Origin: Candidatus Methanomethylophilaceae archaeon
GTDB lineage: Archaea > Thermoplasmatota > Thermoplasmata > Methanomassiliicoccales > Methanomethylophilaceae
NCBI GenBank assembly: GCA_017524805.1
Contig: JAFXUX010000007.1
Location: forward strand, 1-64,000
Length of the DNA stretch: 64,000 nt
Direction of reading: 5' to 3'
How positions within the stretch are numbered: the stretch's first letter is position 1; every line of letters starts with the position of its first letter. The translations under genes were made by a program, and so were the position numbers. This document shows positions 3,595 to 50,029 of this stretch, piece after piece. Below the pieces are notes generated by a model. The model searched no databases and was not told where the DNA came from. It saw nothing but the letters and a program-made list of their open reading frames with translations.

Positions 3595-5034
3595 TCGCTG
3601 GAAACGCTTGAAATCGTACCTTCCATCCTTAATCCTGGCCAGCACCTCGGACGCGATCCCTTCCAACTCTTCGGCCGGAAACACGCCCGATGTCACGGAA
3701 GAGACGCCCGCGGTGGACAGCATTCCGATCCTGCACCTCGCCGCGCCGGCCCTCCTCTGTATGGGAGTAGACATGACGTCCGCGAACTGGATCTTGTCCA
3801 TGAGGATGTAATTCACGGTGCGGTCGTAGGCGCCGGTGACCATCATGACTATGTTCCCGTCGCTTGCGAACCTGCGGGTTCTGTAGGCCATGACGGCCCA
3901 GAAGGCGCATAATGCGATCGCCACCGCCAGCGCGATCCAAACCGCAGAACGGTATTCCGCCGGGATCCCCTTGGAAATTCCGTATGCCGCGAGGCAGGAC
4001 GCCGAGATGGCGATGGCGGACCAGAAGCACAGACCGACGGCGGAGACCCTCTCCTGCCCTATCCTCTCCCCGGCGCACTCGAACTCCGGGAGAAGGCTGT
4101 GGAGCAGATCCATAGCTACCTTCTTAGGCTTCAGCGGGCAGAGGATTGGGATGCCTTTGCTGTTGGCGGTCCCGACGACCTCCACCTCGAGTATGACCCT
4201 GCCCATGAGGCGGCATAGCAGAGGCTCGCGCACCTTGACATAGTTGACTTTGGACAGCATGAACGCGTCCTCTCTGGTGCTGAAGAATCCGGAGGACACC
4301 GATACCGCGTCCCCGGAGCGGGTGATGCGATATCTGTAGAGCCTGAAGAAGCTGGTGACTGCCGGAAGAAGGAAATCCAATATGAACAGGATGGTCGTGA
4401 AGAACGTTATGGATCCGCCGTAAACGAATGAGCCCACGGAATAGGCCAGCATGAACATGCCGAGGCCGAACTGCCCGCTGGACATCCCGAAAACTGAATG
4501 CAGGAGTATATCCCACACGCTCACGTGCACCAAGGATTCCGGTTCCGCCTCTTCGATGGGTTCCTCGCTGACGGGCACGGCTCTGCCGAATATGCGCGCG
4601 TCCATGTCCCTGCGGAGTTTCTCGGCCTCATCCTTCCTCAGGACTATGAAAGCCTCCGCCGAGGATGCGTTCACGCTGGAATTGAGGTTGAAGGAGAGTT
4701 TGGTCGCGCCCAGGATGCGGCATACCGCGTCCCTCTCCACGTTCACCGAGGCCAGCCTGTCATACTGTATGCGCGTCTCGGAGCGGATTATCGTGGAACG
4801 CTTCACGACCAGCTCGTCATCCAGGAAATAATATTTCGTCCTCTTCCAGACGATGATGTTCACGGCCAGCAATAATCCCACCATCAATGCGACCATGAGC
4901 AGATAGAGATCGAAATGGAACTCGTTCCCCATCCCGAGCGTGATCAGCAATACGATCGCGATGGCCACCAAAGACTTCACGGTGTTCGAGGCGACCATCG
5001 ACCAATGGTTCCGGAGGAATGGGGGCTCGGTCAT
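3595..5034 (-). CDS. PH-domain membrane protein, YdbT-like; ends at CGA
   Basis: Membrane protein with bacterial PH (bPH2, DUF304) domains, about 479 aa, resembling Bacillus YdbT. Hydrophobic hairpins lie near residues 15-55 and 160-215, with another pair after residue 300. PH-like strands follow each, e.g. KRSTIIRSETRIQYDRLASV after the first. The ATG at 5034 overlaps the upstream gene's TGA (ATGA). No standard stop occurs where the protein should end: the frame stays open for a further 642 nt, out of frame through the thermosome gene. The first in-frame CGA is at 3595-3597, exactly where the YdbT-type length is reached and just before a hairpin. I take it as the stop. The role is unknown; such pairs are linked to envelope stress in bacteria. 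Confidence 0.78.
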
Positions 5035-14288: not shown

Positions 14289-14792
14289 ATGAAAGTAACA
14301 AGCGAAGGCATAGACGAGAACGGATTCTTCCTCGACAAATACGGGTCCAAAGGCTCTGATTTCATAAAGAAGATGCCGTCCCTGTCGTTCCCATTCAAAA
14401 TCGAGGACGCCCCCGAAGGGACGGCCAGCTTCGCGTTCGTGTTCGACGACTACGACGCGGTTGAGGTCTCCGGATTCGACTGGATCCATTGGATAGGGGT
14501 CGGCCTGAAGAAATGCGAAGTGGAAGAGGGCGCATCCCGCAGCGACAACGATTTCATCGAAGGGCGCAACAGCTGGTGCGGAGCGTTTAACAAGTTCCCG
14601 ATCGAAAAGGCCACTGGATACGGCGGAATGGCCCCTCCGAACAAGACCCACAGATATACCCTCAAAGTCTTCGCCTTGGACTGCGACCTCAAACTTGAGA
14701 AAGGATTCCCTATCGGAGACCTGGTCTTCGGGATTATGGGGCATATCCTGGACTATGCCGTTCTCGTGGGGAAATACTCCCCGAAAAAGCGA
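14289..14792 (+). CDS. YbhB/YbcL family (PEBP-like) protein; ends at CGA
   Basis: Phosphatidylethanolamine-binding-protein fold, 167 aa, of the bacterial/archaeal YbhB/YbcL type. Motifs: SFAFVFDDYDA (the DxD-type ligand pocket), DWIHWIG in place of the usual WxHW, GYGGMAPP and HRYTLKVFALD. The family normally stops shortly after the strand seen here as HILDYAVLVGKY. No TGA, TAA or TAG occurs there; an in-frame CGA at 14790-14792 does. Beyond it the frame would run 120 nt further, antisense through a tRNA gene, giving residues with no family resemblance. I therefore end it at the CGA. Function unknown; it is the second gene after apt. Confidence 0.8.
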
Positions 14793-14810
14793 AGCAAACG
14801 AATTCCTCAG

Positions 14811-14884
14811 CGGCCCTGCCGGGATTTGAACCCGAGTTGTTGGTTCCGAAGTCCAACAGGATATCCATGCTACCCCACAGGGCC
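14811..14884 (-). tRNA. tRNA-Arg (TCG)
   Basis: Cloverleaf: acceptor GGCCCTG/CAGGGCC, D arm GGGGTAGCATGGATATCC, anticodon loop CTTCGGA, T loop TTCAAAT. Aligning it with the tRNA-Arg(GCG) at 19457-19533 puts TCG at positions 34-36. The closing pair of the anticodon stem (31-39) is an A-A mismatch, and CCA is not encoded, unlike two other tRNAs here. TCG is the only standard archaeal anticodon that can read CGA, so this gene bears directly on the proposed CGA stop. It may serve CGG only. Confidence 0.85.
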
Positions 14885-21587: not shown

Positions 21588-22145
21588 ATGGGCGTAAGAA
21601 TGGGTATAGAGAACATTTCCGCTGTGATCGATACGGGTTCGCCCATCGACCTCGACCGCGTTCATTCCTGCTTCGGCAACGCCAAGATGCACGCACAAAA
21701 AGCCAAAATGATCTCATACCGCATCAGAAAGCCCAAAGCGTTCGTAGAGATTTTCGCATCCGGAAAGATAACCATGTCCGGCCTCGTCACCATGGATGAG
21801 GTTAAATCAGCCGGGGCCGCAGTCCTGAGGGATCTTGAGCCGGCAGGCGTCATTCCGCCTGAAGATCCGGAACCCAGAATATACAACATGGTCGCCTCCG
21901 GGGATGCGGGAGCCTCTCTGGATCTTCCGGATCTGCTTCTGAATCTGGGGACTGACAGAGCGGAATACGAACCGGAGCAGTTCCCCGGGCTCATTTATAG
22001 GATGGACGACCCGCAGGTAACCGTGCTGCTGTTCAGCTCCGGCCGGATGGTCTGCACCGGGAGCCCGGACCCTGCTGAAATATCCCGGGCGGCCGACATC
22101 ATCTTCGGTAAGCTGCAGGAAATCCTCCGGACGAAGACGGCCTGA
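21588..22145 (+). CDS. tbp: TATA-box binding protein, divergent paralogue
   Basis: 185 aa with the two-repeat TBP saddle. The second repeat is canonical (EYEPEQFPGLIYR and LLFSSGRMVCTG, keeping both intercalating-phenylalanine positions). The first repeat is degenerate: where FPGL is expected it reads AQKAKMISYRIRKPK, so one DNA-kinking phenylalanine is gone, though EIFASGKITMSG is kept. It may be a specialised TBP for a subset of promoters; whether a standard TBP exists elsewhere cannot be seen. GGGGAG lies 5 nt before the ATG. It ends 3 nt from the CGA end of the convergent transposase-like gene. Confidence 0.88.
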   Translation: MGVRMGIENISAVIDTGSPIDLDRVHSCFGNAKMHAQKAKMISYRIRKPKAFVEIFASGKITMSGLVTMDEVKSAGAAVLRDLEPAGVIPPEDPEPRIYNMVASGDAGASLDLPDLLLNLGTDRAEYEPEQFPGLIYRMDDPQVTVLLFSSGRMVCTGSPDPAEISRAADIIFGKLQEILRTKTA

Positions 22146-22148
22146 CCC

Positions 22149-23705
22149 TCGCACACGGCGCATCAGGAAGCTGCCGACATCTGGAACATCCATTCCCAAG
22201 CCGCGGAACACGCGTTCTTGATCCGGGCTGAGATTGGTTATCGTGAACTTCCCGTCGATCCAGCAGCCTTTGATCGATGAGACGATGGAGATCGCATCCA
22301 GATAGTTGACTTCGTCCGCCAGTTCCGAATCGGACAGTCTGCGTATCAGAGACAGCTTCATGATGTGCGAAAAAAAATCTCCCATCAGAGAGGCTATGGC
22401 GGCTTCGTTGGAGGGGAAAAGCGTCGCCCCTCCCTGGAGATCCGTGCGGAAAATGGAAAGATCCTGATCGTACCTGTGGGCATACAGGGACATCTCTATT
22501 ATTTCTTTCAGACTATAGTCCGTGTTGGTTATTATGAGTTCCCGGCCCAGCATCTGGTCGTGCAGCAGTATCTCGTCGCGTCTGCGCTCGGTTCTCACAT
22601 AACCGTCATCCCCCTCGGTCAGATCCAGCAGATCCAATAGCGGAGAATCCCCGAACATCAGGCGCAGACGGTCATCCAAATCGTCGTTCCAGCGCATGCG
22701 GGACACCGCTTCCTCGACATCGCTCAGCGACTTGTAAAAGGACAGCACCTGATCCTCGTGGGCTTTGGAATCCTGCACTATATACACCGTGCACCGGCTG
22801 ACCAGGAACATGCGCTCCGTCCTGAAGAAACGGTACAGGGAACCGTTGATGAACTCCGTTTCGTAATCGGCCAGATGCATGTGCCCGGAGATTTCGTCTC
22901 TTCCCAGCGGAGAATCGGCCCCTACATGCAGGATCGTCCCGAACCCGGAGCTGATATACGAAGGGACCTCGGATTCTGTGCATCCGGAGATGCGGAGATT
23001 GAACACCGTGCGGGTTATTCCCATAGATCTCAGATCCTCGAACATGCTGTCCAGGCTGCTTCTGTCCACGCCCTCGTAATTGGCCAGCTTGAAAAAGAAC
23101 GGCAGACCGCTGCCGGAATCCACGGCTGTGAACTCAGTCTTATGAGGGAAGTCGTTGAAACTGAACCGGCTCCTGGTCCCATATAATCTGTAGAAATGTA
23201 TGGGCTCCCGCAGAATCTCGGAGTTGAACACCATGGCTTCGTCCCCTCTGCGGAGAGCCCTGAACAGTTCGTCCCTCCTGCCATACACCGTCTTCAGGAG
23301 ATTCAGATAGCCGTCCAGAGTCAGCAGGCGGGAATCGAGAGGGATGCCGAAGTAATCCGGCACGACGGAGTTTTTGACCGCGAAAGACGACTGGGTGGGA
23401 GGGCAGCTTCTGGTGCAGCGGACCGCAGAGTAAGGAAACAGAATCTTGGCCGCATCCGACCCGTATACGTCGCATAGCGCTTTCCAAAGCCCGCAATCGC
23501 AGGCTATGCGGTACAGAAGATAATACTCGCCGAGATCCTTCGATACTATCGACTTCGTCCCGTCGGCCAGCAGATTCCCGTCCGCGTCGCATTTTCCTAT
23601 GTATTTTCTCTTCTGGCGGGATTTCTTCGTCTCGGGATCCCATTCTGACTCGGCCTCGTACAGATAATAGTTATTGCGAATCTTCTGTACAACGTTATAA
23701 GACAT
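22149..23705 (-). CDS. IS1634/IS4-type transposase-like protein; ends at CGA
   Basis: 518 aa if it ends at the in-frame CGA (22149-22151). The N-terminus MSYNVVQKIRNNYYLYEAE with KRKYIGKCD is typical of IS1634-like transposases, followed by the RNase H-like region: VDSGSGLPFFFKLANYEGV holds the first Asp. The second catalytic position, normally a Asp-Arg-Gly-type motif, reads VFNLRISGCTES, with no Asp. So it may be an inactive or domesticated element. With standard stops only, the frame would continue 342 nt antisense to TBP, with no family resemblance. No flanking inverted repeats were found. Its TATA box (ATTTATACTG) lies near 23727-23737. Confidence 0.75.
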
Positions 23706-33786: not shown

Positions 33787-35655
33787 TCATCCCAAAAGTT
33801 TCTGTATTGCCTCGGTCAGCAGCTTGTTGACCTGCTTTCCGTCCAGCCTGCCTTTGAGAGCTCCCATGACGGGGCCCATAAGCGGGCCGACGGCGGCCAT
33901 GCCCTTGGAGCGGACGAAATCCGCCCTCTCATTGACGATGCCTTCGATTATAGCCGCGGCTTCGCCCTCGTCTACGGCCTCCAGACCGAGCTTTCCTATC
34001 GAATCCTCGGCTGAAGTTCCCTTGGCCATCTCGCCCAATAACGCCGGAAGAGCTTCCTTGGCGAACTTGCCCTCCTTCAGAAGATCGAAGGCGTGGGCGA
34101 GAGAGTCGTCGGAGATCGCGGATACGTCGGCCCCGCCGCGCTCCATCTCGCTGAACGTGTTGAGCAAAGTCGTGGCGGCCACGGATGCCATCCCCTTGTC
34201 CGCGGCTATCCTCTCGAAGACCTCGTCCTGGCTCTGCCTGACTATCTGCCTGGCTTGCTGGACATTTATGCCGTAATCGCGCACCAGACGGGCCTCGATC
34301 TGCTCCGGGAACTCGGGCATGCTGTCCCTGATGTCCTTCATCATAACATCGGTTATGAGCGTGGGAGGAACATCGGTCTCAGGATACATCCTGGCCGCCC
34401 CCGGGAGCGGCCTGGAATACTTTGTGGTCCCGTCCGGAAGCGGGTCCCTTGTCTCTTCAGGCACGCCTTCCAAAGCTTCGTTGGCCCTGCTGACGGCCAT
34501 CTCCAGCGCGTCTCTGGCCTTCTTCTCTTTGGCTGCGCAGATTACGAACGCGTCGTTCTCCCCGCTGACGCCGAGGAACTCCCTCAGCTTGCCGACATAG
34601 ACCTGCTCAATGCCGTAGTTGGGAAGCTCATCGGAATGGAAGATTCCTTTGACGCCTTTGGTGCGGGCGCGCTGGGCCATCTCGGCCCCGAGCCTGAGGG
34701 TCCCTCCGTCGCCGTTCATGACGCCGGCGAATCCCGGCAGGCGCACGGCGAGGACTTTGCCCTTGTCCGAAAGGGCGCCTTTGATCACCTTGGATTCGCA
34801 CCCGTCGAACACAGACGTGGCATCCACAATCTCGAAATCCGCAGGCTTCGTCCCTCTTTTGCTCAGAATATCTTTGACCCTGAGGAGCATCTTCTGCCTG
34901 CTGACCTCGTTCCTGACGTAATCCGGGATGAGCTTGAGATCCCCGACCCCTTTGAGCTCGATGCGGGCCCCTCCGGGGATGGAGATGTTAAGGTCCTGCC
35001 TGATGGTTCCCAGACCTCTCTTGACCCTCTTGGTGGCCCTCAGAAGCGTCCCGAGCCTGTATGCGACTTCCATGACTTCCTCGGGAGTCCTCATGTCGGG
35101 GCCGGTGGCCACTTCGATGAGAGGAATTCCCAGACGGTCGGTCCTCCAGACGACCTCGTCCGATTTCGTCTCTACCCTGCGGCACGCGTCCTCCTCCAGG
35201 CACACGGAAAGTATGGAGATTTTCCTGTCGCCTACCGAGACAGAACCGTCGGTGGATATCAGAGCGGTCCTCTGGAAACCGGAGGTGTTGGAACCATCGA
35301 CGACGATCTTCCTCATGAAGTGAACCTCGTCTATGATGTTGGCACCCAGCATCTCCGAGAAAGTCAGGGCGATAGTCAGAGCGTCGTCGTTGACGTCGTG
35401 CGGAGGCTCCTCATCCAGCTCGACCAAACAGCTGGTCCCCTCGCAGCACTGGTATCTGTATCCCATATGCCTCTGGAACTGGGCCAGAGCGGCGCGGTCG
35501 ATCTCTCCCATCTCCGAGGTAGTCGGCCTTAGCCTTCTGTAAATGTCCCCGAATCCTTCCTCGCAGAGCCTGGAGTCGCAGGAGCAGAACAGCTTCTTGG
35601 TGTCCAGCTGCTGGTGGATCTCGATCCCGCACATCATCTCGTACTCTTCGCTCAT
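33787..35655 (-). CDS. gatE: Glutamyl-tRNA(Gln) amidotransferase subunit E
   Basis: 622 aa. With GatD it converts Glu-tRNA(Gln) to Gln-tRNA(Gln), the archaeal route. Motifs: CGIEIHQQLDT at the N-terminus, GIPLIEVATGPD, LGTIRQDLN, and the YqeY-like tail domain (about residues 430-622) with IEARLVRDYGI. The ATG at 35655 lies inside the end of gatD, with AGGAGG seven nucleotides upstream. No CGA was seen among its many arginine codons, and it ends in TGA. Confidence 0.96.
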   Translation of the reverse strand: MSEEYEMMCGIEIHQQLDTKKLFCSCDSRLCEEGFGDIYRRLRPTTSEMGEIDRAALAQFQRHMGYRYQCCEGTSCLVELDEEPPHDVNDDALTIALTFSEMLGANIIDEVHFMRKIVVDGSNTSGFQRTALISTDGSVSVGDRKISILSVCLEEDACRRVETKSDEVVWRTDRLGIPLIEVATGPDMRTPEEVMEVAYRLGTLLRATKRVKRGLGTIRQDLNISIPGGARIELKGVGDLKLIPDYVRNEVSRQKMLLRVKDILSKRGTKPADFEIVDATSVFDGCESKVIKGALSDKGKVLAVRLPGFAGVMNGDGGTLRLGAEMAQRARTKGVKGIFHSDELPNYGIEQVYVGKLREFLGVSGENDAFVICAAKEKKARDALEMAVSRANEALEGVPEETRDPLPDGTTKYSRPLPGAARMYPETDVPPTLITDVMMKDIRDSMPEFPEQIEARLVRDYGINVQQARQIVRQSQDEVFERIAADKGMASVAATTLLNTFSEMERGGADVSAISDDSLAHAFDLLKEGKFAKEALPALLGEMAKGTSAEDSIGKLGLEAVDEGEAAAIIEGIVNERADFVRSKGMAAVGPLMGPVMGALKGRLDGKQVNKLLTEAIQKLLG

Positions 35656-36946
35656 CTGCGGTCCTCCTGTCTGACATCTCGCCTGCGATGGGCGTCTTCA
35701 TGAGGATTTTGGCCTCTTCCGGCGAGGAGGTGTTGGCCAGCGCCCACATCAGTTTGACGTAGGCGGTCTCGGGAAGCATGTCCAAGACGGTCACGACTCC
35801 CGCGGAAAGCATGTCCCTTCCGGTGTTGTACACGTTGAGGTTGGTCCTCCCGTTCAGGCACTGGGACGTCATCACGACCACCGTGCCCCTCTCGTTGGCC
35901 TTCCTGATCAGAGGTATCATGCCTTCGTTTACGTGGCCCAGACCGGAACCGGCGATAACTATCCCCTTGGATCTCATGAATATGTCCTCGAACATGAAAG
36001 GCTCCATCCCGGGGAAATACTGGAGCAGAACGCAGGACCTCTCCATCCCGATTATCGCCTTCGCCTGCCCTTTCGACACAGGCTCCCCGCTCCCGCTGAA
36101 GACGATCTTGCCGTCTTTGTCTATGTGAGCCACGGGAAGGGCGTTGATGCTTCTGAACGCGTCGCGTCTGGACGTATGCATCTTCCTGACTCTGGTACCG
36201 GCGTGCACCGCGAACGAATCGTCGCCCAAAGTGTCGTGCATAACCACGAACACCCCGGCGCGGTTCCCTTGGGTGCAGAACCTCGCGCAGGCGACCAGAT
36301 TGCTGGATGCGTCCGATGACGGGCGGTCGGAAGACCTCTGCGCCCCCACCAGAACCACGGGCTTCGTTATTCCGCGCAGCATGAAGGAAAGCGCCGCAGC
36401 GGTGTATCCCATGGTATCCGTCCCATGGGGGATGATGACCCCGTCGGCCCCGTTGTTTATCTCCTGGGCGACGGCCTCCGCGAGCTCCTGCCAATGCTCC
36501 ACGCCCATGTTCTCCGAGAATATGGAGAACAGAACCCTCGCGTCGATGTTGGCGATATCCCTGATCTCCGGCACGGCATTGACCATGTCCGAAGTGGAAA
36601 GCGCCGGATGGACCGCCCCCGTCCTGTAATCGACATAGGATGCGATGGTCCCGCCGGTCCCTATGAGGACGAGTTTTGGGAGACCTTTCCTGTATTCGAC
36701 CTCCGCCTCTTTCCTCACCCTCTCTGCCGGCTTCTCCAAAACCTCTATCGAAGTGGAATCCGTTATCCTCACCCCGACGTTGTACCCGCTCTTCATCTTG
36801 AGGATGAGGATGTCGGGCGCGCTGAATTCATGGTGAGGCATCAGCGTTCCCACGAACGTCCTTCCGTCCCTGACGACGGACAGTTTAGCGCCTTCGGAAG
36901 CCCCTAAAGCTTCCAAGGCCTTTGAAAGTGCGTCTGAGTAGCTCAT
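35648..36946 (-). CDS. gatD: Glutamyl-tRNA(Gln) amidotransferase subunit D; ends at CGA
   Basis: 432 aa asparaginase-like glutaminase that feeds ammonia to GatE. Motifs: LIGTGGTIASY with the first catalytic Thr, IPHGTDTMGYTA with the second Thr-Asp pair, and an N-terminal small barrel (residues 1-90). The GatD C-terminus is expected just after IAGEMSDR. The first in-frame CGA is at 35648-35650, giving a normal 8-nt overlap with gatE. With only standard stops it would run 237 nt further out of frame through gatE. The start MSYSDALSK at 36946 fits a TATA element near 37013-37020; an upstream ATG at 37021 is less likely. Confidence 0.87.
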
Positions 36947-37704: not shown

Positions 37705-39027
37705 ATGAAATTCCTTACAGTGGGAGGAGGCGGAAGGGAGCACGCAGCGGTGGAAGCCCTTCGCAGATCCGGCGCGGAGATCTATGCGGCTATGAAGAAC
37801 GCCAACCCCGGCATAATCGCCGCCTCGAAGAAGCACATACTGTGCGATGAAAAGGACTTCGCCAAGATCTGCGCTTTCGCGAAGGAGAACGGAGTCGAAT
37901 ACGCTTTCATCGGCCCGGAAGCCCCGTTGGAAGCGGGAATCGTGGATGCCTTGGAAAAGGAAGGGATAAAATGCGCCGCCCCGACCAAAGCCGCCGCGAG
38001 GATCGAGACCTCAAAGACCTTCATGAGGGAGCTCGTCAAGAAATACGGCATCGAGGGGAACCTCGGTTTCGCCCATTTCGATAACGCCGCCGACGCCGAG
38101 AAGTATCTGAAGACCATAGACCACGAAATCGTCGTGAAACCGGTGGGTCTCACCGGCGGAAAAGGGGTGAAGGTCCAGGGAGAGCACCTCCACAGCTTCG
38201 AGGACACCATGGGCTACATCCGCGAGATATTCGACAACAACATCGGCGGCGCCGGAGTGATCCTGGAGGAGAGGGCGATCGGCGAGGAATTCACCCAGAT
38301 GGTGTTCGTAGATGGAAAGACTATAGTGCCGCTTCCGCTGGTCCAGGACCACAAAAGAGCGTACGAAGGAGACGTAGGGCCCAACACCGGCGGCATGGGC
38401 TCTTACACCGATTCGAACCATCTTCTCCCGTTCATAACCGAATCCGAAAGGCGCGAAGCACTCGCCATCCTGCAGAGCATAGTCGATGCGATGGCAAAAG
38501 AGGGATGCCCCTACCGCGGGACCATGTACGGGCAGTTCATGCTGACCGTCAGCGGGCCCAAAATCATCGAGATCAACGCCAGATTCGGGGACCCGGAGGC
38601 CATGAACGTACTCCCGATCCTCAAAACCGGGTTCGGGGACATCTGCAGGATGATGGCCACAGGAACCCTGAGCGGAAACGTGGAGTTCGAGAGGAAAGCC
38701 ACAGTCTGCAAATACGTCGTGCCGAGAGGATATGGCGTGAAATCAGAGTCCGGGCATGAGATTTCCGTTGACGAAGAGGCCATCAGGAGATGCGGCGCCA
38801 CGGTCTACTATGCCAACGTCGACGTGAAGGATGGAAAGCTGGTTACCGGCACGTCCAGATCCGTGGGCGTCATCGGCATCGCTGACACCCTCGAAGAGGC
38901 GGAATCCAACTGCGAAAAGGCTTTGGAATACGTCATATGCGACGCGATAGCGGTCCGCCACGACATCGGCACCCGCGCCCTCATCCAGAAAAGAGTGGAC
39001 CACATGAAGGCGCTCAGATCCGCATGA
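37705..39027 (+). CDS. purD: Phosphoribosylamine-glycine ligase (GAR synthetase)
   Basis: 440 aa ATP-grasp enzyme of purine synthesis, joining phosphoribosylamine and glycine. Motifs: FLTVGGGGREHA at the N-terminus, GPEAPLEAGIVD, KPVGLTGGKGVKV in the ATP-grasp, GAGVILEER, and NARFGDPE binding Mg-ATP. The ATG at 37705 follows the hypB TGA by 4 nt. Its TGA overlaps the truA ATG. No CGA was seen among about 25 arginines. Confidence 0.95.
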   Translation: MKFLTVGGGGREHAAVEALRRSGAEIYAAMKNANPGIIAASKKHILCDEKDFAKICAFAKENGVEYAFIGPEAPLEAGIVDALEKEGIKCAAPTKAAARIETSKTFMRELVKKYGIEGNLGFAHFDNAADAEKYLKTIDHEIVVKPVGLTGGKGVKVQGEHLHSFEDTMGYIREIFDNNIGGAGVILEERAIGEEFTQMVFVDGKTIVPLPLVQDHKRAYEGDVGPNTGGMGSYTDSNHLLPFITESERREALAILQSIVDAMAKEGCPYRGTMYGQFMLTVSGPKIIEINARFGDPEAMNVLPILKTGFGDICRMMATGTLSGNVEFERKATVCKYVVPRGYGVKSESGHEISVDEEAIRRCGATVYYANVDVKDGKLVTGTSRSVGVIGIADTLEEAESNCEKALEYVICDAIAVRHDIGTRALIQKRVDHMKALRSA

Positions 39028-39794
39028 AGCGCGTTTTGATGAAGATAGCCTATCTGGGGTCCGGATTCTCCGGGTCCCAGACCCAGCCTGGGAAACGCAC
39101 GGTGGAATCCCAGGTTCTTTCCGACCTCAGGAAAGTATTGGGAACAGAAGACCCGTGCTTGGAGTTCTCCAGCCGCACCGACCGCGGCGTCAACGCCCTC
39201 GGAAATGCGATAGCGTTCGTCTCTCCCATGGACGATCTGAGGATTCTTTCCAAAGCCCTAAATTCGGTCACAGACGGAGTTTTTTACAGGCAATACTGCG
39301 GAATCGACGGGGAATTCAACGTCAGGCACGCATCCCGCCGCATATACCGCTACATCTTGGACGCAGATGGCATCGATTTCGATAAAGCAAAGGAATGCTG
39401 CGGACTGTTCGAAGGCACCCACGATTTCGTCAGGTTCTGCCGCTACGACGGCAAGCCGACGACTTTGACCATAGATAGACTACAGTGCTATTTGGAAAAT
39501 AACACTATAGTGCTCCAATTCGAAGCCAGATACTATCTGTGGAACATGATACGCAGGATCGCGTCGGCAGTGGAATCCGTCGGCAGAGGGAAAACTGATG
39601 TATCTGAAGTGGAGGCTGCGCTCAACGGGAAGAACGCCACTTTCGGAGTCGGGCGCCCGGAATCGCTGACTCTTATGGATGTGCAGTACGACATGCTGAG
39701 CTTCGAAGACTCCGACCCAAGAGGAATCTCCGGAAGGAAAAAAGAAGGGCTGCGGGAAGCCGATCTGCTCAGAAGCTTCTACAGCTCCCTGCGA
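39024..39794 (+). CDS. truA: tRNA pseudouridine synthase A; ends at CGA
   Basis: 256 aa. TruA makes pseudouridine at tRNA positions 38-40. Motifs: the catalytic Asp in SSRTDRGVNALGN (about residue 53), RIYRYIL, and ARYYLWNMIRRI. The ATG overlaps the purD TGA (ATGA). The family ends soon after LMDVQYD and a short helix. Here the helix ends SFYSSL followed by CGA (39792-39794). With standard stops alone it would be fused to the translin gene as a 461-residue protein. Instead a TATA box lies right after the CGA and a separate translin start follows, which argues for two genes. Confidence 0.88.
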
Positions 39795-39798
39795 ACCC

Positions 39799-39806
39799 CA
39801 TTATAC
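39799..39806 (+). promoter_or_regulatory. TATA box of the translin gene
   Basis: CATTATAC, centred about 25 nt before the ATG at 39828, so the translin mRNA would be leaderless. It sits immediately after the CGA that ends truA and would be inside coding sequence if CGA meant arginine. Confidence 0.55.
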
Positions 39807-39827
39807 TCGCTTCATCATGACCATCCT

Positions 39828-40409
39828 ATGGACAACCTCGAGCAGACGGCGAACAAGGCCGCGGAAGCCCTCGCAGAGATGGAAAGCTCCAGAGAAGAAG
39901 CTATAAGACGTTCCAGATCGGTCATCCGCCTGTCCAAAAATGTTATGCATGCCATCCACACAGGCGCTCAGCCGGACGGATCTCTCGGCGACATGAGAAC
40001 CGAGATTCAATCGATGCTTGAAATCTGCGAAGACCCGGCGATCCTGATGTCAGGCCCCGTCCAAGATGCCATGGCAGAATTCGCCGAAGCCGAGATCATG
40101 CATGCCCTGGCATCCGGTTCTCCGGTGCAGGATTACTCCGGGCTGCACATAACGCCGTCCGCATGGATTCTGGGCCTCTGCGACTGCGAAGGCGAGATGA
40201 GACGCATGGTTGTGTCCGAGCTTATGGAAGGACACCTGGACGAAGCCAGAGTCGCATTCGGAAAGATGGAATCCCTGCATGAGATAATCATGGGCTTCGA
40301 CATATCTGATGGCGTGGCGCAGGTCAGAAGGAAGCAGGACATCGCCAGAGGCGTCATGGACAGGACACGCTCGGACCTGCTCAATGCAACTTTGAAATAT
40401 GCTCCATAA
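39828..40409 (+). CDS. Translin-family protein
   Basis: 193 aa, all helical. Translin/TRAX proteins bind and sometimes cut RNA as octameric shells. Seen: SREEAIRRSRSVIRLSKN in the first helices, LGLCDCEGEMRRMVV in the middle, and the C-terminal signature RRKQDIARGVMDRTRSDL. It looks complete from the ATG at 39828, which has a TATA box at leaderless distance. It ends in TAA. In the frame it is continuous with truA across 33 nt, but the gap contains CGA and the promoter. Confidence 0.85.
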   Translation: MDNLEQTANKAAEALAEMESSREEAIRRSRSVIRLSKNVMHAIHTGAQPDGSLGDMRTEIQSMLEICEDPAILMSGPVQDAMAEFAEAEIMHALASGSPVQDYSGLHITPSAWILGLCDCEGEMRRMVVSELMEGHLDEARVAFGKMESLHEIIMGFDISDGVAQVRRKQDIARGVMDRTRSDLLNATLKYAP

Positions 40410-49384: not shown

Positions 49385-50029
49385 TCGCAATCCGAGCATG
49401 TCGTCGGCGTAAAGCTTCGCCGCTTCGCGGGGGTCATCAGCCCCATATATCGCCCTGCCGACTATGGCATAATCCGCGCCTGCGCGTATCGCATCGGAAG
49501 CTTTGCCTCCCTGGGCGCCGACGCCCGGGGACAGAATCTTCCTGTCCGGACCTATTACCGCACGGATGGCAGCAATCCTGTCCGGGCGCGTTGCGGGCGC
49601 GATGAATCCTTTTGCCCCGCATTCGGCCCCGAGCCTCGCCATCTCTTCCGCATGGAGAGCGGTGAACATTTTGGCCCCTGGATGGCTCATCTCGGTGACG
49701 GCATAGATTTCCGCCCCTCCGGCCGCCTCGACCGCCGCCCTCAAAGAATCGTCTCCGGTGAACGCGTGCACTATCACGGCGGACGCGCCCCTGGAAACGG
49801 CGTTCTCGACGATCAGCCTGACAGTGTTGGGTATGTCGGCCACCTTGAAATCGCATATGACTTCGGACAGTTCGGAAAGGCGGTTGATCATCTGCGGGCC
49901 TTCGGAAAGGACCAGAGGCCAATTGATCTTTATCGCGTCGACGATATCGGCCACCTTCCCGGCGACTGCCAAAGCTTTCTCCCCGTCCGTCTCGTCCAAG
50001 GCGAGGACCAGCCTGCTCTCTTTCTTCAT
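49385..50029 (-). CDS. pyrF: Orotidine-5'-phosphate decarboxylase; ends at CGA
   Basis: 214 aa, TIM-barrel enzyme of pyrimidine synthesis (OMP to UMP). Motifs: LALDETDGEKAL at the N-terminus, KINWPLVLS, the catalytic VICDFKVADIPNT (DxKxxD), SPGVGAQGG, and the C-terminal GRAIYGADDPREAAK. The family ends shortly after the last helix, here LYADDMLGL, and the next codon is CGA (49385-49387). With standard stops the frame would continue 108 nt into the start of the aglB-like gene, through its promoter. Length 214 fits archaeal PyrF. It is divergent from the radical SAM gene. Confidence 0.9.

Follow-up and report, generated by a model that had tools for sequence, protein, structure and literature searches.

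CGA as a probable stop codon, and a CGA conserved within the release factor gene, in a genus of Methanomethylophilaceae

The gatD/gatE junction and other CGA-ended genes

The window analysed here is a stretch of 64,000 nucleotides (positions 1 to 64,000 of contig JAFXUX010000007.1, assembly GCA_017524805.1) from the genome of a Candidatus Methanomethylophilaceae archaeon, referred to below as G000. Its minus strand carries gatD (35648-36946), which encodes subunit D of the Glu-tRNA(Gln) amidotransferase and was identified by its match to the NCBIfam model PRK04183/gatD_arch; start and end codons both agree with those of relatives. The gene begins with the ATG at 36946 and its 3' end reads GCA GAT GAG CGA, the C-terminus ...RRTADE being followed directly by a CGA at 35650-35648. 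The next gene on the same strand is gatE (33787-35655), which encodes 622 amino acids, ends in TGA, contains no in-frame CGA and has homologues in 101 of 102 genomes of the family. Its ATG lies at 35655-35653, and a ribosome-binding site, AGGAGG (35663-35668), stands 7 nt ahead of it.

With CGA as its end, gatD overlaps gatE by 8 nt (35648-35655). Under translation table 11 the frame instead runs on to a TGA ending at 35411, which lengthens the overlap to 245 nt and gives GatD a 79-residue tail, comprising the CGA and 78 further codons, of which 7 are again CGA. This extension (35411-35647) is gatE sequence read out of frame. The preliminary description of the window had drawn attention to the difference between the two overlaps, and direct reading of the sequence confirms its coordinates and the AGGAGG motif.

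GatD family models stop at residue 453-455 of the long reading frame, in which the CGA is codon 458. We used the long GatD as a query against 40 related genomes and inspected the DNA where each alignment ended. Same-genus relatives in which the junction could be aligned carry TGA at precisely the codon that is CGA in the window (35648-35650), the exception being G001, whose GatD is 83% identical and whose codon is likewise CGA. The start of gatE downstream of the gatD end is conserved in relatives, and the T-to-C change at the end of gatD leaves a serine of the overlapping gatE intact (AGT to AGC). Because the tail lies behind a TGA in relatives, it is not conserved as protein, and on this comparison we judge that it is not translated.

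Six genes of the window, gatD included, end in CGA, and for all six there are homologues that stop at the corresponding position. One is a truA-like tRNA pseudouridine synthase gene (39024-39794, plus strand; CGA at 39792-39794), for which the hisT_truA and PseudoU_synth_1 matches stop before the CGA. Only if CGA encodes arginine is this gene fused in frame to the translin/PRK14562-like gene that follows it (39795-40409, plus strand), whose separate family matches cover residues 296-487 of the fused reading frame. In a second genome used for comparison, G014, the truA homologue has TAA at the aligned place and the translin/PRK14562-like homologue is a separate gene that follows it. For pyrF, encoding orotidine 5'-phosphate decarboxylase (49385-50029, minus strand; CGA at 49385-49387), PRK13813 matches up to residue 208 of 250, the CGA is codon 215, and the G014 homologue (84% identical) has TGA within about one codon of this position. 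A bacterial PH-domain protein gene (3595-5034, minus strand; CGA at 3595-3597) has many same-genus matches, which stop where the CGA lies in the long reading frame, at query residue 611-618. Matches to an uncharacterised 518-amino-acid gene (22149-23705, minus strand; CGA at 22149-22151) end at query residue 507-519; a probable separate gene follows in the same frame (21807-22148, minus strand), residues 531-630 of the joined reading frame matching stand-alone reading frames elsewhere. The last of the six is a YbhB/PEBP-family gene (14289-14792, plus strand; CGA at 14790-14792), in which the PBP match extends to residue 163 and codon 168 is the CGA; TGA is found in its G014 homologue at this position or within a few codons of it. 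Together with the TGA of the relatives at the gatD codon, these five further genes support the earlier proposal that CGA is the gatD stop.

The YbhB gene converges with the gene for tRNA-Arg(UCG), its CGA and the 3' end of the tRNA being only 17 nt apart (14289-14884). Reading through this CGA would carry translation across the tRNA gene.

CGA inside genes and at gene ends

The genus to which the window belongs is represented by 31 species-level genomes; nearly all genomes in the analysis are metagenome-derived assemblies. We analysed about 855 kb of G000, less than half of that genome, and 1.2 Mb, about two thirds, of G014. Alignment of start-trimmed G014 proteins to G000 gave 75,090 codons, among which there were nine CGAs. 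Eight of these lie near the starts or ends of alignments; the ninth, codon 78 of the gene for the release factor aRF1, is the only one well inside a conserved gene. At the 188 gene ends scored in G000 the codon was TGA in 152, CGA in 23 (12%) and TAA in 10, with none found in 3. Thirty G000 genes were without a nearby standard stop, and CGA stood at the aligned end in 18 of them, the next commonest codon accounting for 8.

The reverse comparison found two CGAs in 72,143 codons of G014, one of them again aRF1 codon 78. Gene ends there were TGA (188), TAA (11), CGA (4) and TAG (1), with none found in 20, and two of the four CGA ends were at the expected place; as a stop, CGA is minor in this genome, at about 2% or less of gene ends. 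A wider sample of the genus, 22 named loci with flanks of up to 10 kb, contained no CGA among 3,695 arginine codons outside aRF1, compared with 41 CGG, and its gene ends were TGA (158), CGA (12) and TAA (8). The trinucleotide as such is common: the window is 56% GC, its plus strand holds 1,479 CGAs, and out-of-frame CGA is abundant.

These figures come from homology-based counts, which replaced an ab initio count that treated CGA as a stop and was hence blind to its absence from genes. A tblastn count had returned 344 interior CGAs, nearly all of which belonged to shadow ORFs or lay ahead of genuine starts; once the hits had been filtered by frame and trimmed at their starts, hardly any remained. 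Shadow ORFs also overwhelmed an all-against-all ORF comparison within clades, which was discarded.

Four in-frame TAG codons also occur among the aligned G000 codons, and the same genome carries a tRNA-Pyl (CUA) gene (L059:7127-7197). UAG is probably read as pyrrolysine, in places at least, and a single genome may thus be gaining CGA as a stop while partly giving up UAG.

The aRF1 gene and tRNA-Arg(UCG) in the genus and the family

Wherever a same-genus aRF1 gene extends over codon 78, this codon is CGA and is the only CGA in the gene; in the 22-locus sample this holds in 21 of 21. Codon 78 corresponds to a conserved arginine, and Arg is most likely the residue inserted there. Most other arginine codons of aRF1 vary among the same genomes, with a few also invariant (R186, R189 and R261). 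The preceding codon is NCT in 20 of 20 genes (GCT in 14, TCT in 6), even where alanine is replaced by serine; none of 40 copies from the family's other genera has NCT there, and in these genomes GCT makes up 4-11% of alanine codons. Codon 79 is CTC, CTA or CTT. This conservation looks like a nucleotide signal around a recoding site. The reading frame of aRF1 is unchanged after the CGA, with no +1 frameshift, and since it continues past codon 78 the CGA must be read at some rate.

A search across clades for a residue change in aRF1 that cleanly tracks CGA termination found none. Position 65, four residues past the end of the NIKS motif, is methionine throughout the family and arginine or asparagine in outgroups; structures of eRF1/aRF1 are available for comparison. 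Met65 is shared by Methanoplasma-like genomes whose gene bodies still contain CGA, so the residue may be permissive without being sufficient.

The tRNA cognate to CGA, tRNA-Arg(UCG), is encoded in the window at 14810-14884 on the minus strand (ARAGORN; Rfam tRNA, 50 bits), and it is kept in the genus and across the family. Its anticodon stem is closed by an A31 x A39 mismatch. All 18 same-genus copies read have A.A or C.A here, and all copies scored from other genera have a standard or G.U pair (the G044 copy was left unscored). A tRNA-Arg(CCG) is also present, so that reading of CGG is independent of the UCG tRNA. In tRNA-Trp(CCA), a 4-bp anticodon stem raises the reading of near-cognate UGA (PMC13092985). 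In both cases the anticodon stem has lost its closing pair and the tRNA is a competitor of a release factor; they differ in that tRNA-Trp(CCA) reads a near-cognate codon, whereas for tRNA-Arg(UCG) the codon is cognate. The altered tRNA-Arg(UCG) may, by analogy, tune the competition at CGA.

In the aRF1 tree the genus stands apart, with strong support, from both a Methanoplasma/termite group and a group containing Methanomethylophilus. The branch joining it to the Methanoplasma group has weak support (83/65), and CGA termination may have had one origin or two. Genes for aRF1 in the Methanomethylophilus group have a single CGA, at codon 25, in 11 of 11 loci. Outside aRF1 this group has 2 CGAs against 1,768 arginine codons counted, both in one locus and both aligned to acidic residues, and ten gene ends are CGA; at six loci cmk ends in CGA and the ATG of the next gene follows in frame. 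The group is probably in a similar state, with codon 25 as its single CGA position in aRF1.

Methanoplasma-like genomes use CGA rarely (25/2,177) and at no gene end examined. Their aRF1 genes are enriched in it (28/288; Fisher p 1.4e-13, a value that ignores shared ancestry), and this excess is not explained by full reassignment. At the individual loci (L214, L215, L217, L218, L220-L225, L227, L233 and L259), CGA is sparse and found at various gene-body sites, and aRF1 nearly always has one to four. Outgroup Methanomassiliicoccales use CGA freely (141/1,880, or 7.5% of arginine codons), most often where Arg or Lys is aligned, and show no enrichment in aRF1.

In several smaller clades each aRF1 contains one or two CGAs, at codon 78 in L231/L234, 50 in L226/L236, 11 in L216, 123 in L219, 99 and 105 in L240 and 25 in L238, and the 788 other arginine codons counted there include none. 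Two family genomes, G041 (L334) and G097 (L337), have an aRF1 without any CGA. In the aRF1 flanks of L239, from a codon-25 genome, CGG is the commonest arginine codon (125/210) and CGA is absent, so low use of CGA amounts to more than avoidance of CGR codons.

The proposed meaning of CGA

CGA encodes arginine in almost all other life. In the genus, translation very probably terminates at CGA besides UGA and UAA, to judge from gene ends and interiors, and this termination is probably carried out by aRF1. In the mechanism that we propose, the single release factor would tolerate either U or C as first base when GA follows; since UGA is the main stop here, such a relaxed first-base check would add CGA. 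Ribosomes would release protein at CGA, gene interiors would be purged of it, and drift from TGA to CGA at gene ends, for example at gatD, would be harmless. In the aRF1 message, aRF1 and the retained tRNA-Arg(UCG) would compete for the CGA at codon 78, which the tRNA would read in frame as arginine. High aRF1 would favour an early stop at codon 78 and low aRF1 the full-length factor, the outcome being a negative feedback loop that resembles that of bacterial RF2 and is built with a sense codon. Feedback of this kind seems reasonably likely. Taken as a whole, a CGA stop read by aRF1, an arginine at its own codon-78 CGA and autoregulation form the best explanation, to which we assign a probability of roughly 80%. 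The sequences contribute to it the absence of CGA inside genes, its presence at homologous gene ends, the invariant aRF1 codon with its context, and the tRNA. Weighing against it are the retention of the cognate tRNA, unlike in the organellar codes discussed below, the small share of CGA among gene ends, and the want of an aRF1 residue change that goes cleanly with CGA termination.

A conventional reading would have CGA as an ordinary, extremely rare arginine codon, the CGA-ended genes having lost their stops and carrying harmless tails or fusions. The cognate tRNA-Arg(UCG) is indeed present, both CGA and CGG are rare in the genus, and T-to-C loss of a stop is a common transition. We nevertheless consider this unlikely, because a codon absent from all 3,695 arginine codons outside aRF1 at the 22 loci makes up 12% of G000 gene ends, because the tails are out-of-frame sequence with several more CGAs or entire neighbouring genes, and because mere rarity should not produce an invariant aRF1 site with conserved context together with absence elsewhere. 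The conserved tRNA, present across the family, bears differently on the idea that CGA is an unassigned codon at which ribosomes stall and are freed by Pelota/ABCE1 rescue instead of aRF1. Weak second aRF1-family matches in these genomes, likely to Pelota-type genes, would suit such a route, as would the want of a clear recognition change in aRF1. Against it stand that tRNA and the aRF1 gene itself, which requires CGA to be read; the retention of CGA in aRF1 and in none of the other sampled genes points to aRF1 as the reader of the codon. We regard rescue as distinctly unlikely.

Since CGA and UGA differ solely in C versus U, C-to-U editing of the mRNA would also yield a normal stop. An editor would need knowledge of the frame to choose among the many CGA trinucleotides of the window (1,479 on the plus strand), and the genus-wide absence of CGA from gene interiors would be left unexplained; editing is thus very improbable. 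Least probable by far is that a sequencing or assembly error masks a normal TGA. The window does come from a 47-contig draft assembly. However, G001 independently has CGA at the same gatD codon, and with two assemblies sharing it an error there is unlikely; the pattern is moreover repeated at many genes in many assemblies. The preliminary description had named such a hidden TGA, or conservation of the GatD tail in relatives, as findings that would speak against a CGA stop. What we find is CGA in two independent assemblies, and TGA with no translated, conserved tail in relatives.

To our knowledge, changes of a sense codon to a stop have so far been reported only from organelles. Examples are UUA/UUG in mitochondria of Marsupiomonadales and UUA/UCA in plastids of peDinoflagellates, where the cognate tRNAs are gone and an altered release factor is held responsible (PMC12574857). 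As in those codes, the codon here is gone from gene interiors and present only at the stop positions of relatives. Unlike them, the present case concerns CGA in a cellular archaeal genome of megabase size, with a release factor of the archaeal/eukaryotic type and one interior CGA in the gene for that factor. The tRNA loss usual in the organellar cases is likewise not seen: tRNA-Arg(UCG) is retained, which argues for a codon of dual meaning and not a plain new stop. Genome screens with Codetta have found arginine codons reassigned in bacteria, AGG to Met, CGA/CGG to Trp and CGG to Gln/Trp (PMC8629427). These resemble our case as rare arginine codons with a changed meaning in a prokaryote clade, and differ from it as sense-to-sense changes, those of CGA/CGG at low GC, whereas here the change would be sense-to-stop in an archaeon whose window is 56% GC. 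Codetta is stated to be unable to detect sense-to-stop changes (PMC9825746), and further changes of this kind may have been overlooked because screens of its type are blind to them.

The bacterial RF2 gene, prfB, has a +1 frameshift at a standard stop, an in-frame UGA. Both genes carry, early in their own frame, a codon for the release factor, recognition of CGA being our proposal here. In aRF1, unlike prfB, there is no shift of frame and the codon can be decoded by an ordinary tRNA, so that the site is not of the RF2 type, though the control may resemble it. Another comparison is with the class-I release factor of Mimivirus and Megavirus, whose internal UGA is read through; its authors described such control as absent from archaeal homologues (PMC3521657). 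It shares with our case a gene of the eRF1/aRF1 type that is translated across an internal stop in the zero frame, and differs in being viral and in using UGA plus a second, frameshift stop. Recoding demonstrated in archaea comprises, according to a review, selenocysteine, pyrrolysine and one frameshift (PMC8211752). Our search, which covered open-access papers, turned up no description of CGA serving as a stop in archaea.

Among the smaller clades, the position of the CGA in aRF1 varies as if a codon that senses release-factor level could move. A broader proposition, for and against which we see the balance as even, is that in much of Methanomethylophilaceae CGA has a stable double meaning, being a stop in every gene but aRF1, and there both an arginine codon and a sensor of the release-factor level. 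The sensor would predate or outlive full reassignment, because aRF1 is enriched in CGA even where gene bodies still use it, and the family would hold several stages of a sense-to-stop change. Methanomethylophilus has cultured members, which opens the question to direct test.

If the proposed reading is true, standard annotation gives these gut methanogens false protein tails, fused neighbouring genes and misplaced overlaps. Factors of the aRF1 type would then be able to gain a sense codon in a cellular archaeon, and autoregulation of release factors would extend to the archaea.
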